A stretch of DNA of 64,000 nt from Physcia stellaris (lineage: Eukaryota; Ascomycota; Lecanoromycetes; Caliciales; Physciaceae), in NCBI GenBank assembly GCA_018902385.1, contig JABSSW010000017.1, positions 558,001 through 622,000 of the forward strand, given 5' to 3'. This document shows, piece by piece, positions 12,142 through 62,934 of this stretch. Position numbers and translations under genes: made by a program. The first letter of the stretch is position 1, and every line of letters begins with the position of its first letter. The notes beneath the pieces were generated by a model. The model worked only from the letters and a program-made list of their open reading frames with translations. It was not told where the DNA came from and ran no database searches.

Positions 12142-12146
12142 CAAAT

Positions 12147-12265
12147 TGTTGCAGTTAGCTCACCTAGGGTTAAGGCTGCAGAAAGCCCGGTGAAAACCTC
12201 AACTTCAAATCCTGTACACTTAGTATTATCATCGATATAATCAATGAACTATTTCTATTTCAACA
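12147..12265 (+). repeat. 5' LTR of copia element
   Basis: This 119-bp LTR has TGTTG...CAACA ends. It differs from the 3' LTR at 15 positions, all transitions. The flanking CAAAT matches the base run after the 3' LTR. Confidence 0.93.
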
Positions 12266-15200
12266 GATTATGAGTTCGAACAGTTCGTTTTTTATCAATC
12301 AAATATTATTCGCTTCGTCATTTTCATTTTTTCAATGATTTTTGCATCGTCGTGCGCAATTTTTACGAAATCGAATACACTTTTTGAAAAAAATGAATCA
12401 AACGAACTTTTTCGATTTTCAACGTTGAATTTATTGTTTTTTTATTGATTCATTATTTTGCTGTTTTTATTACATGAATTGATTCGCGTATACATATCGC
12501 TTTTTAATTTTTCAACGAATTTCGATGATTTTCGCCGTCAAATCGACGATTTACATATTATTTCAATATCGTGCGCAAAACATTCATTTGATCGATATCA
12601 TAATTCATTGCGATATTCGAATCATTACAACATTTTGTTTTATTTACGTGTCATCAAAATATTTCATCATGATGTTTTATGTTTGAATCATTGTTCAAAC
12701 GATCAACAACATCAATCGTCATTCAAAATTTCGATTCGAATTTCACACGCAAATTTTGAACATTTGCGCACATTTTTTTATCAAATTGAATGCGTTATTT
12801 GCGTTAAATTTTTCAAATCGAGTTTTCATATTCGAATCGACGTTATTTTCGATGAAATTTCATTGTTGAAAATTATGTTTTTACATTAAATTTCATTCTT
12901 TTTATTAATTTACTGTTAAATTACATTTGATTCGAATGTTTGAACATTCGTTTATCTTGCTCGTTCAAACGTTTGATCGTTTGTTGATTTTCTCGTATCG
13001 CATAAATGAAAATTTGAACGAGATTTTGAATTCGAGAATCGTGTCATTGACTCGTTTTTTACAAAGCAAATAATTGATTTCGTTATTCTTTTCTTTTTAT
13101 CAATTTTCTGTATTTTCATTGTTCGTTATATTATTTTCAATTTATTTTCGATACACATATCAATACATCTTTTTGTCTATTTTATCTCATTGTCTGTTTC
13201 GAAATAAATCATACGATCGTCACTTCGAGAAAATCAAACAATTGACGCATTTGTTTTCGCCGTCGCTACACAATTGCTTATAAGTTTTGACAATAAGAAA
13301 ATGCATGAAACGAAACAAACACGATAATCACTTCATATCATTTCTTTAGTAAACGTATTCAAGTCAAAATGAAAAATCATTCGATCAAATTTTTGATTTA
13401 CATCAAATCATTGTATCGTTTCGAAAATTATTATTTTTGAAAATTTGAAATCAAGAATCATTTTCAATTTTTAAATGTTGAATGAATTATCACGAAATTC
13501 ATACGAACTCGTTTTATCAAAAATTTCATGACAAATGAAATCAAAGCGAAAAATTATACGAACGAACATGTCGTCGTCAAAACGTTTGATTTGAAAATCG
13601 TTCAAAATCGTTATGACTTTGAAATCATCAAAACACATAATTTTCTATTTAATTTCGTGCATGTTTCACATCGTTTCACTATTTTGAATCAAAACATTTT
13701 TTTGAAACGTTGAGTCGTTATTGCATTTCAATTCAAAAAAAAAACGCTTGCTTTCGTCATGAATATCATTTTTACACTTTTAAGTTTCAATTCAAAATCG
13801 AATGACGTTGAATCGTTCGTCGTTGTCGTGAAATTTATTCAAAATAATTTCATCATTATGAATGTCGAGATTTTCATTACTATATTCGTCATTTGTCAAA
13901 ACATTTTGCTCGTCAAAATGAAACACGTTCATTTTTTTTTCGTTCAACAGCAACGCAACAATTGAATCGAATTCAATACGAATGTCAATAAATTTTGTTT
14001 CGAATTTCGTCATTATGCAAAAATCGTTCAATTTTTCAAATTCGTCGTCATGATCACACAAATTTCGAAATCGTCAAACAAGCGAATACGTACTCACGAT
14101 GATCAGACGTTCATTCTCACGTCAAAATTTTTCAAATATGTGAAATCATCGTGATGTTTCTTTCTTAAATGCGTTGAAACAAATCAAATTCATCATGATT
14201 TCAAACGATGCTTCTGGCAAAATCTCAGCATTGCATACAAAAATTGACTAGACAAAAACATGTCCGATTACGTTAAAAGCGAAACGAATTGACAATCACA
14301 ATCGATCGTCAACTGAAAACGTGTTTTATCGATTGCTCGAACGATCAACAACATGTTATGATACGTTGACTCGAAAGCAAATATTCATGTCTGCAAAAAC
14401 AAACATTTTATTCAATCATTTCGTTTTTACGAATTTATCGTTTTAATCGTCGATAAAGTTCGTTCTTCGATTTCAAATTTGAACATAATACAACTTTTTA
14501 TCGTTTTATCAAATGAAAAAATCATTGAAATTTTCACTTTATCGATGTATTACATGTTCGACTCGTTTGTCAATCTTTTTTCGATATCTGTTTTCGAAAA
14601 ACAGAATATTCATTGAAACACATCCGATCACGTGTTTAAAAATCGTGATGTTTTTGTTGTTTGAACGTCTTTGAGCGAAAATGATTTTTATGCAATTATG
14701 TTGCAAAACAATCAAATGACTGTTCTGATCATTGTTTCGCTTATTTCGTTATTTACATGACATAAACGATTGAAACACTTTAATTATTTTGCTTTTCGAA
14801 TATATTTTAAATTCTTGCAAATCAATTATGTTGACGACGTTTCGAATAATCATTGCGATGTATGCAAACAAATCAAAATTAAACGAAAATTCAATCGAAA
14901 CGAAAACATCAGACGAGTTTCAGAATTCTTTCACATCATACATATTGATTTTGTATCAATCTCGATACTCGATTACGAGCAAAAAACGTGCTACATCACG
15001 TTCATCTGTGATTGATGTCGAAAAATTGATGTCTATACGATCAAAAACAAAACAAAATGAGTGATTCATTTCTCGATTTACATTTTCATGATTGAAAATC
15101 AATATAATGTGAAAATCAAAATCGTCAAAATTGATTATGATTTCGAATTTCGCAACATCAAATTCGATGCATTTTTGATTTTCAAGAACATTTTATTCGA

Positions 15201-17827
15201 GTTCGTCTCTATCGACGTTCAAAACGTAAATGAAATCGCTGAAACTCATCAACGTACAATTACAATCATGATTCAAACGACGTTACTTGACGACGACATA
15301 TTTGACTTTTTGTAATCGAACGTCATTTTGATCATGACATATATCAAAAACGTCGTTTTTCGATTTTTTTGACGACATGAATTTTATCGAAAAATTTATC
15401 GACATTGTTTCAAATTTTTTAATTTACATTCACTTGAAATCATTGTTTACGTTGTCAAGAATTCGAAACACAAAAATCATCTCGAGTTTCGCGATGACAA
15501 AAACATTTTCATTGAATACGACGACGACACGATTTATCGTGTATGAATTTCACTTTTTAACGACAACGAAATACGCAAAGTCAAAAACGTCGATTTTTAC
15601 GATGTCGCAATTTTCAAGCAATACACGATTTTTAACGAAGTCATTGCGATTTGAACAGAAAAGATGTTTTACTATTTCAAACACAATTTCAGACGTTATT
15701 GTTTCGAAAATTATCACATTCAAAAATAAATCGATCATTTCTCGCAAAATCAAATTCGCATCAAAAATTTCACAAAGCATATTTTCAATCATTTTTCATA
15801 AATTTATCATCATGCGTTCAAGTCGTCAAATCAAACAAATTGATTTTTTTATGAATTCATTTGTTTACTCGATTATATCAAACAATACGACAGAAATATT
15901 TAACGTTGTTATGACAAAATTACTGACAAATTGAAAACATTTTTCGACGATTTCGTCGTTTTTCTGAATTGTATCGACGAAAATTTTATTCTCGTCGAGC
16001 GTTTTTTCGAATGATACAATGATTCATGCGTTGTCAATTCAGTTTCACTGTTAATTGATTTTATCGAAATTCAAAACGTCACAAATTTTGAAAATTTTGT
16101 TGTTTTCAACAATATGAATGACGACGAACTCAACACATGATCACAAATCATAAATAATTCAAACTCGTCAAATTGAATGAACGTTGTCGAAAACGAAATT
16201 CAATCTTTGAACAAAAACAATACATGAATTTTGATAAATCGTACATTCGATAATCGAAAATTTTTAAACGATAAATGAATTTTCAAAATCAAACAAAATG
16301 TCGAAAAAAAAAATTCGTTACAAAATTCGATGAATTGTTAAAAATTATTTGCAACAATATGACATTGATTTCGAACAAATTTTTGCTTTCGTGATCAAAT
16401 CAATGATTTTTCGAATTTTGTTCGTCATCGTCGCGTTTTTGAATTTAGAAATCGAACAAATGAACGTCAAAATTGTTTTTTTTTACGATTTCATCGATAC
16501 AGAAATATACGTTAAATATTTCGAAAATTACAACGAGAAAAGAATTTGCAAATTTCGCAAAATTTTATACGATTTTAAACAATTTTCTCGTTTATGATAC
16601 GAACGTTTAACAAATTTTCTTTTTGAAAAGTTGAATTTGCATCATTTACACGTCGATCACAACATCTTTGCAACGACGAAAAATTTCAAAAATTTCATAT
16701 TCACTTTTTGAATTGACGATATCAAAATCATTGTTTTTCATCGTCATGATCAACAAAATAAAAAAAACTGTTCGTTGTTTTCGAAATGATTGATATGAAA
16801 TCAATTAATTTTTATTTAAACATGATCGTCATCAAAAATCGTGATCGCAAAAAAATTCAATTCAATCAAAAAATTTACATCAAACGCATCGTCATCAAAT
16901 TTGATCGAAATGAAGTCAAATCAATACATATTTCAATGCGAACGAATTTCGTTTCGATTTTTAACGAAAATCAAATTTTTGAATTCGACACAAAATTGTA
17001 TCAAATCAAGATTGATTTCGTCATGTTTGTCATGATCGAAATCAAATTAAATGTTTTTAACATCATTTTCATCGTCAATCGCTTCGCTCAGAACTCAAGC
17101 AAAATTCACATGAACGTCGTAAACGATATTTTCGATTATTTCAATATCATTGATCGTCTAAGCATTGTTTACGAAAAAAATTTTGATTCACAAAACTATT
17201 GCGACGTCAATTACGATGACGATTTGATCACTAAAAATCAATTGACGTTTACGTTTTCATTTTCAATGAAAATCAATAAATTGAATGTCAAAATTTCAAT
17301 TTATCGTGATCACTTTCACATGCGTTGCAAAATATATAATCATTTCGACGATTATTAAAAAAATCACGTGATTTCGAAATTTGTTCGTCGATTTACACAT
17401 TCATCATCAACGTGACAAATACGCTATTTTACAGATACATATCGATAGTCAAAGTGTCAAAATTCTCGTCGAAAATTCAATTCATCATGATCGCATCAAA
17501 CACGTCGATATCGTTTATCATTATATTCGAAACGAAATCAAAATTAATCGAATTCGTTTACATTACATTTTTATTCAAAACATGTCTATCGACGAGCTTA
17601 TCAAGATTTTGATTTCTATCAAGTTTCGTTGCTTTATTCAAATGTTGAGCATGAATTAAATTCAAAAACGTTGTATTGTTATCATAACATGTTGAATTTC
17701 TTCGATCTTAAATCATTACATTGAGTATTGAGATGTTTTACAGCGTAAAATGAAATTCACATCAATTTTTGATGATAAATTCATTCTCGTCAGTAAATTT
17801 TATTCGAATTCGATTCGAAAAAAAAAA

Positions 17828-17946
17828 TGTTGCAATTAATTCATCTAAAATTAGAGCTGCAGGAAGCTCGGTGAAAACCTCAATTTCAAATTCTGTACAC
17901 TTAGTATTATCATCGATATAATCAATGAACTATTCCTACTTCAACA
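17828..17946 (+). repeat. 3' LTR of copia element
   Basis: This 119-bp LTR is about 87% identical to the 5' LTR with no indels. It is preceded by an A-run at 17818-17827, the expected place of a polypurine tract after G-to-A mutation. CAAAT follows directly. Confidence 0.93.
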
Positions 17947-17951
17947 CAAAT

Positions 17952-46901: not shown

Positions 46902-49900
46902 ATGTCACGCGAAGATAGTCCCAAGAGAAGAAGACTTGACACAGATCGATTTGCCGTTCCATCAAGACCTTCGACAAACCGAACATCACTCTCTGGCCAA
47001 ACTCCATTACACAAAAAATACACGGACCGAATTCAAAGCGATCATGTACATCGTAATGGATTGGAATCTCGCGCACAGTCTTCAACTCCGAGGCTGTCGC
47101 GGTACGCTCCCACCCCGCGACAGAACGAGTTTGAGGGTCCAGAACCCATGGTAAATCAGGAGGATTCGGACGCCTTGGATCGAGATTGGTATACCGGAGA
47201 AGAATTTGGTCACACATTGGGTGACGAAACGCACAACCCGTTTGGTTCAGCCGACGCGACTTGGGCGGACCAGCAGAAGGAAGCGGCTTTGGCAGAGAAG
47301 AAGCTGGGTAAGCGTGTCAATGCGAGAGCTGTGCAGAAGCAACGGGATCTGGATGCTTGGGAAGCAAATCGTATGCTCACATCGGGTGTTGCGCAGCGGC
47401 GAGACTACGAGAACGACTTCGAGGACGACGAAGAAGCTACAAGAGTGCATCTACTTGTTCACGACATTAAGCCCCCATTTCTAGATGGTCGTAAGATTTT
47501 CACCAAGCAGTTGGACCCAGTACCTGCAGTTCGGGACCCTCAAAGCGACATGGCAGTCTTCAGCCGTAAAGGCAGCAAGGTTGTCAAGGAAAAACGGCAG
47601 CAGAAAGAGCGACAGAAGCAGGCGCAAGAAGCCACCAATATGGCTGGAACTACACTTGGGAACTTGATGGGTGTCAAGGAGGACGAAGGTGACAGCGCAG
47701 CAGCTGCTCCGGGTGAAGAGGAAGTCAAATCAGGAAGCAAATTTGCAGAACACCTGAAAAAGAACGAGGGCCAGAGTGCCTTTAGCAAGAGCAAGAGTCT
47801 TAGGGAACAGCGGGAATATCTTCCAGCGTTCGCGGTTCGAGAAGAGCTCCTAAGGGTCATCCGAGATAATCAAGTGATTATCGTTGTCGGACAGACAGGT
47901 TCTGGAAAGACTACTCAGCTGACCCAATTTCTCTATGAGGATGGTTATGCAAAATTTGGTATGATAGGTTGTACTCAACCCCGACGGGTGGCTGCGATGA
48001 GTGTTGCCAAAAGAGTCAGTGAGGAGATGGAGGTCAAATTAGGTGGTCTGGTCGGCTATGCCATACGATTCGAGGATTGCACAAGTAAGGAAACTGCCAT
48101 CAAGTACATGACAGACGGCGTACTGCTTAGAGAATCCCTGGTGGAGCCGGATCTAGACAAATATTCCTGCATAATCATGGATGAAGCTCACGAACGTGCA
48201 CTCAATACAGATGTGCTCATGGGCTTGATTAAAAAGGTCCTTGCGCGACGAAGAGACCTGAAATTAATCGTCACTTCAGCAACAATGAACTCTGACCGTT
48301 TTTCCCGTTTCTATGGCGGTGCTCCAGAGTTCTTCATCCCAGGGCGAACTTTTCCTGTGGATATACAATACTCACGAACACCTTGCGAAGACTACGTTGA
48401 CAGTGCTGTAAAGCAGATTCTGGCGATTCATGTCTCTCAGCCCGCTGGTGATATACTAGTTTTTATGACCGGCCAGGAAGATATTGAGATTACATGCGAG
48501 TTGGTCGCTGAACGTCTGAAGATGCTCAACGACCCACCAAAAATGAGCATACTTCCTATCTACAGTCAGATGCCTGCGGACTTACAGGCAAAGATCTTTG
48601 ACAAGGCTGCCCCCGGTGTACGAAAGGTTATTGTAGCTACCAACATCGCCGAAACCAGCTTGACTGTGGACGGTATCATGTACGTTGTTGATGCGGGCTT
48701 TTCGAAGCTCAAGGTCTATAATCCGCGGATGGGCATGGATGCGCTTCAGATTACACCAATATCACAAGCCAATGCCTCGCAGCGTGCCGGTCGAGCAGGT
48801 CGCACAGGTCCAGGAAAGGCTTTCCATCTCTACACCGAAGTGGCATTCAAGGATGAATTTTACATCCAGACAATACCTGAAATTCAGCGGACAAATCTTG
48901 CTAATACGGTCCTCCTCCTGAAGTCGCTTGGTGTGAGGGATTTGCTGGATTTCGACTTCATGGATCCTCCACCCCAAGATACGATCACAACTTCGCTTTT
49001 TGACCTATGGGCACTCGGCGCTCTGGATAACATCGGTGATCTCACTCCGATGGGCAAGAAAATGACAGCTTTCCCCATGGATCCCTCTCTAGCGAAACTC
49101 ATCATCACGTCCGAAGAGTACGGATGCAGCGAGGAAATGCTGACAATAGTCTCGATGCTTTCTGTTCCAAGTGTTTTCTATCGACCAAAAGAACGTCAAG
49201 AGGAGTCGGATGCCGCGCGAGAGAAGTTCTTCGTCCCAGAATCGGATCATCTCACCTTACTTCACGTATACACGCAATGGAAGTCGAATGGTCTTTCGGA
49301 CGGATGGTGCATTCGGCATTTTCTCCATCCCAAGGCTCTACGACGGGCCAAGGAAATTCGCGAGCAGTTGTATGATATCATGAAAGTACAAAAGATGGTC
49401 ATGACCAGTTGCGGCACGGACTGGGATGTGATCCGCAAATGCATATGCTCAGGATACTACCATCAAGCGGCGAAGGTTAAAGGGATCGGCGAATATGTCA
49501 ATCTACGAACTAGTGTCACTGTACAATTGCATCCCACGAGTGCTCTGTACGGGCTTGGCTATCTGCCTGACTATGTGGTCTACCATGAGCTAATCCTTAC
49601 ATCGAAGGAATATATGTCGACAGTCACATCAGTCGATCCACATGTAAGTAGCAGATTTCGTCCACCCTTTTGGAAATATGAGCCTAATGGATATCTAGTG
49701 GCTTGCCGAATTGGGTGGTGTATTCTACTCAGTAAAGGAGAAAGGCTACTCCGCACGCGAGAAGCGGGTAACAGAACATGTGTTCAACCGAAAGATGGAG
49801 ATCGAGACTCAGATGGCCGAAGACAAGGAACGGGAAGCTCAGAGACTTGCGAAAGCTGCCGGTGCACTCAAGCCCGCAGTAGTTCGCCCAATGTCATCGG

Positions 49901-49971
49901 CTGTGAAGAGGATAGCGACGCAGGGCACTGTGAAACGGCCTCTAACCCCGAGGGTGGGACGAGGATTTTAG
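46902..49971 (+). CDS. PRP16: Pre-mRNA-splicing DEAH helicase Prp16
   Basis: The model is join(46902..49643, 49699..49971), 1,004 aa. Prp16/DHX38 is the RNA-dependent ATPase that remodels the spliceosome after the first catalytic step. The N-terminal third is disordered, with [16 protein letters not shown] and [15 protein letters not shown], segments typical of Prp16. The helicase core follows: [10 protein letters not shown] (about residue 330), [19 protein letters not shown] (about 426), [45 protein letters not shown] and [13 protein letters not shown]. The intron near the end (49644-49698) is needed: reading through it gives a nonsense tail up to 50012, while splicing restores [15 protein letters not shown] and the family C-terminus. 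Confidence 0.96.
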
Positions 49972-50275
49972 AGCTTATGTGTGAATTAGCAATCGAAAAG
50001 ACCTTTGCATGACTTGTAATGACGACCACGACCCGTTCGTGTCAATACTCACATCAAGGCGCTTTATCGTCCTCTCTCTTGACGGGAACCCTGATGATCA
50101 CGTGATTCCAGTTTTCTGATTTTCTTTAGCGCCATTCGCTTGACACACCGCACTTCGATTTTCATCACAACTTGCCTGTCAAAAATCAAAGCTCTTTTCA
50201 ATCTACTTACTTCCTCTAGCATACAGCGCTTTTTCAATTTTGCCTCTGATATGTCCTATCTCAAACAAATCAGCT
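49972..50275. other. intergenic region PRP16-RRN3
   Basis: This 304-bp tandem intergenic region should hold the PRP16 terminator and RRN3 promoter. A CACGTG core occurs in GATCACGTGATT near 50098. No other motif was recognised. Confidence 0.4.
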
Positions 50276-61662: not shown

Positions 61663-62934
61663 CTATGTCGTGATATGCATATTCGCCAAATGCCTCCTTA
61701 TTTTATTCGTCTTGGCCGCCAACGCGCGCACGCTCATGATAAATAGCTCATCGCTGTCATACTGCCCCGTGCTCTCGACGCTGAAGATGAAATGGTCCCG
61801 CACCCTTCCCAACTTGACTTTATCCTGGAACTCTGCGTGGCGCAGACACTCCCTGGACACGGTATCCTTGAAAGCGTCCTTGACCACCGCTTTCTTCTCG
61901 CCGATTTGGTCTTCAAAAGCTTCGCCAGCTTTCGCCGCATCCTCTTCGGTGAACTCTTCGAGACCGATCACCCCCTTAGGGAAACATCTCGCGAATTTCT
62001 TCGCATCATTCCCCAGAATCGGCTTCACGATGTCAATCGTCGGCATCAAGCGATAGCTAGCCGTAGCCACGGGCGAAAACTTAGCATGATCGCCCCCCCT
62101 CCCCTTCCTCGCATGCAACTCCATCGAGATCTCCTGCCCAGGCCGCAATTTCGCGATCAGAATATCCGGATTCACCGGCCTCACCGCATGCTCCCCCTTA
62201 AATGACTCAATCTGCTTACCGATCGGGTGGAACGTGATGTCCCTCGCATAGACATTATGCCCGACATACAGCTCCTCGATATCATCCGCCTTGCCCTCCT
62301 TCAACAGCCTCTGCGCGCCCTCCTTCCACTCGCACGCCACCTCCAGCTTCATGAGGATGGTATTCTGATCCGTGGCCTTGTCGCCCTCGGCGTCGCCCTC
62401 GCTGGGCGGGCGCTTGAAATTCATGTCTGTGATGGCGGCCGGGTTGCCGGTGAGCGGGATCAGGCCGAGGCGGTGCGCGAGCACTTCGTCTTGGATGATC
62501 GAGGTGTTGTTGTGCACGAAGACGTCTTCGATGGCGACGGTGGGGATTTCGGCGAGGAGGATGCGCCGGAAGGCGTTGGATAGGGAGGCGTCGATGCCGA
62601 TTAGGGAGAAGGAGGCGTGGTGGGCGCTGTTTTGGTGGAATTGGACGCGGAAGGACTGGGGATTGGTTTAGCTGCGGAGTTTACAGTATGGCTGGAATTG
62701 ATGGATGGGATTGGAGGGAAGAGGGGATCCTCACATTTCGGAATTCCTCGAGGTTCCAAGCGTGGTTTTCGCCGGGGTAGTGGCCAGGGAAGTCGGTGGA
62801 GGATACATTGGTGACTGTTCGTTCATTGACTCCAACGATCTGAATAATTTAGTGGTTGGAAGGAAGTGCAGAATCAATTGATAGCTGACCTTCCGTCTGT
62901 AAGCCTCATCAGGCGAGATACGTTCGGGCGCCAT
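61663..62934 (-). CDS. RPC40: RNA polymerase I/III subunit AC40
   Basis: The model is complement(join(61663..62655, 62735..62839, 62890..62934)), 380 aa. AC40 is the alpha-like subunit shared by RNA polymerases I and III, and pairs with AC19. Motifs are MAPERISPDEAYRRK, VGVNERTVTNVSSTDFPGHYP, SFSLIGIDASLSNAFRRILLAEIPTVAIEDV, NTSIIQDEVLAHRLGLIPL, DILIAKLRPGQEISMELHARKG, HAKFSPVATASYRLMP and the C-terminal DHFIFSVESTG. Both introns are in phase zero. It is head to head with the complex I gene. Confidence 0.96.

Follow-up and report, generated by a model that had tools for sequence, protein, structure and literature searches.

Transposons of Physcia stellaris carry C-to-T mutations centred on CpC and CpT, probably the mark of a RIP-like process

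What could remove nearly every CC and GG, and most CT and AG, from a retrotransposon and leave CA, TG and CG in place? The question is raised by a 5.8-kb copia long terminal repeat (LTR) retrotransposon at positions 12147-17946 of a 64,000-nucleotide stretch of Physcia stellaris DNA (GenBank assembly GCA_018902385.1, contig JABSSW010000017.1, positions 558,001 to 622,000 of the forward strand), called the window below. The element bears CAAAT target-site duplications on both sides. A sequence-only reading of its inside had proposed a mutation process resembling repeat-induced point mutation (RIP), aimed at C followed by a pyrimidine (CpY, or RpG on the opposite strand). We report that transposons of this genome have undergone C:G to T:A mutation on both strands, ranked by the base 3' of the cytosine and indifferent to the base 5' of it. 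A RIP-like process, whose catalyst would read a 3' pyrimidine, probably hypermutated these long repeats on both strands.

Composition of the copia element

The stretch singled out by the sequence-only reading, 12266-17827, is exactly the internal region bounded by two 119-bp LTRs. The parts of the element are the following:

12142-12146, no strand: left target-site duplication CAAAT, identical to 17947-17951
12147-12265, forward strand: 5' LTR, 119 bp, TG...CA, only lightly damaged here (a 117-bp cut retains 26 CpY/RpG sites)
12266-17827, forward strand: copia internal region, CC/GG and most CT/AG removed (from dinucleotide counts, shuffles and copy alignment)
16295-16732, forward strand: remnant of the copia reverse transcriptase (RVT_2, E 1.2e-16) with 3 internal TGA stops
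17828-17946, forward strand: 3' LTR, 119 bp, 15 differences from the 5' LTR
17947-17951, no strand: right target-site duplication CAAAT, identical to the left copy

CC and GG together occur 5 times in the internal region (CC 4, GG 1) against 227 expected, and CT and AG together 172 times against 569. The observed/expected (O/E) ratios were 0.03 for CC, 0.01 for GG, 0.32 for CT and 0.28 for AG, with CA at 1.45, TG at 1.15, CG at 2.99 and TA at 0.40. Relative to 500 mononucleotide shuffles, the z scores were -16 for CC+GG, -20 for CT+AG, +10 for CA+TG, +24 for CG and -24 for TA. In both flanks all sixteen dinucleotide O/E ratios lay within 0.69-1.18, and the CC+GG ratio never fell below 0.74 in 563 overlapping one-kb windows outside the element. 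These ratios bear out the loss of CC, CT, GG and AG, with CA, TG and CG kept, that had been described from the letters, and the two sample counts given with it are exact: 13561-13620 holds CG 6, CA 3, CT 1 and no CC, AG or GG, and 16801-16860 holds CG 3, CA 6 and no CT, CC, AG or GG. The excess of CA, TG and CG arises because surviving cytosines mostly precede A or G. Elsewhere in the window, the housekeeping genes for a PRP16 helicase (46902-50012) and the RNA polymerase subunit RPAC1 (61663-62517) have a normal DNA composition. Together with the DIM-2-like protein described below, these two matches would suit a filamentous ascomycete.

The TA/AT index of the element is 0.39 and its substrate index, (CpA+TpG)/(ApC+GpT), is 1.37. 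With published RIP cut-offs of TpA/ApT >= 0.89 and (CpA+TpG)/(ApC+GpT) <= 1.03 (PMC2621366, PMC10998396), the element is not RIPped by the classic indices, despite its heavy mutation.

Differences between LTRs and between copies

An LTR element is expected to insert with two identical LTRs. Those of the window copy now show 15 differences, all of them transitions, of which 7 are at CpC and 8 at CpT. LTR pairs were compared in eight of nine copies, L017 being dropped for unequal length. The eight insertions gave 109 differences (62 CpT, 38 CpC, 7 CpA, 0 CpG and 2 transversions), so that 100 of the 109 fell at CpC or CpT, and the sites available in the 5' LTRs were 119 CpT, 46 CpC, 138 CpA and 18 CpG. 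Target-site duplications are exact in four of the eight (the window copy, L010, L011 and L012), and these four alone yield 29 CpT, 27 CpC and 2 CpA differences. The duplications of L013, L014, L015 and L016 do not match, and these insertions may therefore be mutated or recombinant, which makes their LTR pairs weaker evidence. By its LTR pair, which gives five of the seven CpA changes and both transversions, and by its duplications, L014 is an older or recombinant insertion.

The genome assembly searched (44.0-Mb, 147 contigs) holds 29 places that match a 751-bp query from the 5' end of the element, including the element itself and its own 3' LTR; 17 of these 29 are short stretches of the LTR part alone. 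Nineteen stretches were taken and 16 sequences, the window copy among them, were aligned, leaving out four places with the LTR only or a 204-bp match. L018 and L019 share a contig, as do L020 and L021; each pair could stem from one insertion that was split, which would leave about 14 independent insertions. With 150 bp trimmed at each end, the loss of CC and GG is common to all 16 sequences (CC 0-4, GG 0-2, CT 0-128). Variable columns are purely C/T or A/G in 954 of 1,060 cases, and the minority base among these damaged copies is mostly C at CpT and mostly T at CpA. Damage at CpT ranges from 0.60 to 1.00 per copy; damage at CpA climbs with it (rho 0.88) and damage at CpG stays flat near 5% (rho -0.03), both correlations being indicative only, given shared ancestry and several short sequences. 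By these trends CpC ranks first and CpT second, CpA is a weak third, and CpG lies outside the target. Along single copies, clustering of CpT damage was seen in 2 of 13 (z -3.8 and -4.3) and not in the others.

For this family, the evidence of mutation is the LTR pairs, the variable columns and the TGA stops in the reverse transcriptase remnant. No undamaged copy of it was found among the 19 stretches read, and the direction of change was therefore established with other families.

Direction and context of the mutation

L032 is a copia copy with a stop-free reverse transcriptase domain and normal composition. Where L032 has CpC, its relatives L054, L037 and L043 have T in place of the C at 94, 94 and 97% of sites, respectively; the values are 78, 77 and 90% for CpT, 6, 5 and 9% for CpA, and 3, 5 and 5% for CpG. 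Substitutions other than C>T and G>A occupy 1.7, 2.2 and 1.8% of positions in the same pairs. Expressed relative to CpA, the rates are 40-52 times for CpC, 26-27 times for CpT and 0.5-1 times for CpG. The lightly damaged L033, compared with seven relatives, gave 94-98% at CpC, 60-92% at CpT, 1-10% at CpA and 0-3% at CpG, and an undamaged DDE_1 transposon, L062, compared with L068, gave 79, 61, 7 and 6% in the same order, with other substitutions at 3.9%. As a side observation, L033 (C20:571398-572132) has 4 TGA in its reverse transcriptase domain and an otherwise near-normal composition, with GG at 0.54 versus CC at 0.85; it possibly records a light, one-strand event.

The base 5' of the cytosine had no visible effect (xCC changed at 0.93-0.97, xCT at 0.80-0.84). 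Of 418 CCA sites, 362 became TCA and none CTA; of 273 CCG sites, 237 became TCG and none CTG. These outcomes, together with the indifference to the 5' base, indicate a catalyst that reads the base 3' of its target. The first C of CCC changed slightly less often (0.88) than the first C of CCA, CCG or CCT (0.96-0.97), which would fit a middle C that is often changed earlier and leaves the weaker CpT context.

Both strands were affected to similar degrees, and C:G to T:A transitions were nearly the exclusive change, as in RIP in the broad sense. Thus, when copies are compared, CpC and CpT, not CpA or CpG, account for most of the C-to-T changes on both strands, as the sequence-only reading had it; also, the unmutated copies L032, L035, L036, L047 and L062 are free of the bias. 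The claim that CpA and CpG are both spared holds for CpG, which hardly changed, and has to be amended for CpA, which is a weak third target with 5-9% of sites changed.

Extent across the genome

Among the best 30 of 137 RVT_2 loci, 25 had a CC/GG O/E <= 0.15 in their middle 700 bp and five were undamaged or nearly so. Seven of ten DDE_1 loci, two of which overlap, were at or below 0.04, one was normal and two were intermediate. Internal stops, tallied by hand, were TGA in 401 of 505 cases for RVT_2 and 249 of 285 for RVT_1 among the matches listed, and in 44 of 47 for DDE_1 and 47 of 55 for DDE_3, that is 79-94% over four transposon protein families; for RVT_1 and DDE_3 the evidence consists of these stop counts, and sequence composition comes from the RVT_2 and DDE_1 loci. 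Such a predominance would be explained by the change of the tryptophan codon TGG to TGA that is expected from an opposite-strand CpC change, and RIP at CpA would favour TAA and TAG. The damaged loci are repeats, both retrotransposons and DNA transposons, and the remainder of the window has normal composition.

Within the element, damage fades over the outer 100-150 bp, and the first 30 bp keep 11-12 CpY/RpG sites in 6 of 11 copies. As a side observation on another repeat, 5.8S rRNA matched a single place (C41:45899-46052; 39 of 2644 candidates scored), and the rDNA array is therefore probably collapsed in the assembly.

Candidate enzymes

The sequence-only reading had suggested that a distinct methyltransferase or deaminase pathway may be at work. 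A search with PF00145 returned four matches in three genes. One encodes a DIM-2-like protein, whose best PDB match is 9bap (E 2e-181), which we take to be Neurospora DIM-2. The two others, at separate loci, encode a RID-type protein with EQT and a second, shorter one with EET, the assignment being made by motif (after PMC6709928). The latter (L028, C6:791557-792528) has EET in motif VI and 513 residues by an inferred gene model, and two TGA codons inside the gene fall in inferred introns. Both RID-type proteins keep PPCQ, and all three methylase genes have PCQ and open catalytic exons. With these three proteins encoded, a re-aimed RID-type enzyme would suffice. No methyltransferase activity of purified RID has been observed in vitro, according to a review (PMC13297926).

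Eight places matched PF00383 (the dCMP/cytidine-deaminase family), one of them with 4 TGA in read-through that may be introns. APOBEC_N had no match in the genome; this profile was silent in control genomes too, so the result says little.

Discussion

The RIP-like process that we favour would rely on a cytosine catalyst with a preference for a pyrimidine on the 3' side of its target, taking CpC first, then CpT, CpA weakly and CpG hardly at all. This catalyst may be a RID-type C5-methyltransferase (the EQT or the EET paralogue), possibly acting with DIM-2. Cytosines would be methylated and then deaminated, or deaminated directly, in bursts that probably belong to the sexual cycle. In its working the phenomenon resembles RIP, and the most fitting name for it is a RIP-like process whose context preference is overturned; RIP proper would require RID dependence and premeiotic timing.

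Several observations weigh against this reading. Three stop-free copia copies, L035, L036 and L047 (contigs C8, C42 and C7), which are 95-97% identical over 3.2 kb, have escaped, which shows that the process does not at present strike all repeats: either mutagenesis comes in episodes, or it has ceased, or these copies arose after its latest round. A further 32 places, some of them fragments, have 68-79% identity to this family; 13 of them overlap RVT_2 matches by coordinates, and all 13 contain TGA stops. Four places consist of the LTR only, or nearly so: L023 and L025 are little damaged, and L027 and L022, the latter with about 85 bp of internal DNA as well, are worn. A minimum repeat length for mutation is thus only suggested here; for RIP, a value of about 400 bp is given (PMC4522978). 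Around eight copies (16 flanks), CpY/RpG ratios were 0.79-0.85 in the first 900 bp outside; the low GC beside some copies means that these adjoin other damaged DNA, and damage could be spreading from the element into its flanks. Also, EQT and EET, a distinction within the Masc1/RID group, both occur in other fungi (PMC6709928), and neither motif alone can therefore explain the new specificity.

Could the same pattern have accumulated slowly? In that case a DIM-2 that prefers CpY would methylate cytosines in vegetative heterochromatin, and the resulting 5-methylcytosine would deaminate gradually, with no need for a premeiotic burst. The genome does encode a DIM-2-like protein, Zymoseptoria DIM-2 promotes CA-to-TA mutation in mitotic growth (PMC8016269), and a review table assigns DIM-2 a CpT preference (PMC13297926). 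However, between L032 and L043 T is found at 818 of 877 CpY sites, against 63 substitutions other than C>T and G>A in 3,431 positions, which is a very large excess. Moreover, L035, L036 and L047 have diverged by 3-5% with a flat 2-4% of C-to-T at CC, CT, CA and CG; this flat spectrum argues against steady deamination, as repeats are not constantly leaking at CpY. DIM-2-dependent methylation in Zymoseptoria is moreover found at CG, then CA, then CC, and hardly at CT (PMC8016269). We therefore regard slow deamination as improbable. CpG methylation followed by deamination was rejected, with CG at an O/E of 2.99 and CpG change flat across copies.

A cytidine deaminase of the AID/APOBEC kind, acting on single strands during reverse transcription or replication, would produce a nearly pure C-to-T spectrum like the present one, and PF00383 matches are present in the genome. 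Known APOBEC preferences are determined by the 5' base, which is irrelevant here (no CCA became CTA), both strands are similarly affected, DNA transposons are affected too, and APOBEC_N gave no match, a weak point in view of the silent controls. APOBEC-type editing is thus very unlikely, and was rejected on its context. That the elements owe their composition to native base or codon use, with no mutation at all, might be read from the CC/GG loss common to all 16 aligned sequences. In other copia families and in a DNA transposon family, however, undamaged copies are of normal composition and differ from their damaged relatives mostly by C-to-T and G-to-A, which leaves this explanation practically no room. 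The idea of ordinary CpA RIP carried to saturation deserves just as little credence: most variable columns among damaged copies are indeed CpT and CpA, but the element is poor in TA and rich in CA and TG, most CpA sites of L032 persist in its three relatives, and canonical CpA RIP was rejected on the gap between CpA (5-9%) and CpC (94-97%) and on both indices.

Compared with known systems, the RIP-like process of this genome shares several traits with RIP in Neurospora crassa, the mould where repeat-targeted mutation was discovered: C:G to T:A change, both strands, several transposon classes, and RID- and DIM-2-type proteins encoded. The difference of target that had been proposed from the sequence is upheld, with CpC > CpT >> CpA > CpG here and TpA depleted instead of enriched. 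The Neurospora ranking is given as CpA > CpT > CpG > CpC, and that of Trichoderma reesei, which likewise changes C to T in duplications and has RID-type enzymes, as CpA about equal to CpG, then CpT > CpC, so that CpC comes last in both of these published rankings (PMC5496416). Signatures at CpA, CpT and CpG were described in ten genomes (PMC4352252). In Magnaporthe, Botrytis and Sclerotinia, CpT is targeted and RID homologues are present, as here; CpT goes with CpA in those fungi and CpC is not mentioned in that paper (PMC4352252), whereas here CpC leads and CpA is nearly spared. Botrytis and Sclerotinia have two RID homologues per genome (PMC2432034), which, with their CpT signatures, makes the EET paralogue a natural suspect and only that. 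The RIP-like mutation of basidiomycetes and truffle is also transposon-linked C to T, but its target is CpG (PMC4352252, PMC4014442), the least affected context here.

No CpC-first RIP was found in the literature searched, which did not extend to the RIP-context survey of Clutterbuck 2011, where one may be recorded. The nearest case is Table 2 for Rhizoctonia AG8, in which CpC changes are the most closely spaced, at 214 bp genome-wide versus 370 for CpG; its authors call the bias CpG, and the table covers single-nucleotide polymorphisms between nuclei, genes included, with CpA and CpT also listed (PMC4014442). CpA bias was reported in 70 repeat families of Mycosphaerella (PMC4522978), and CpA or CpT are the main changes according to passages of five other papers (PMC2621366, PMC5555474, PMC7882544, PMC10998396, PMC5148876). 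An engineered variant of M.MpeI is likewise a C5-methyltransferase that reads a 3' C and methylates CC; it differs in being a laboratory product with four changes in its target recognition domain, with no CT activity, and in not being a natural repeat mutator (PMC10899764).

In a k-mer survey of 1,239 fungi that is independent of the classic indices, RIP-like defences share a CpA preference (PMC12543289), to which the present genome would be an exception. We tentatively entertain, as a possibility short of our firmer claims, that in a natural RIP apparatus the recognition of the 3' base has shifted from A to pyrimidine; divergence in the target recognition domain of a RID-type protein would be the likeliest route, with the EET paralogue as first suspect. 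RIP of the CpY type may also be widespread in some lineages of ascomycetes and have gone unseen there, since CpA and TpA underlie the standard indices. As TpA/ApT and (CpA+TpG)/(ApC+GpT) pass a heavily mutated element as clean, surveys based on these indices may undercount RIP. An overturned ranking and two RID-type paralogues in one genome make the target choice of RIP testable by gene swaps.

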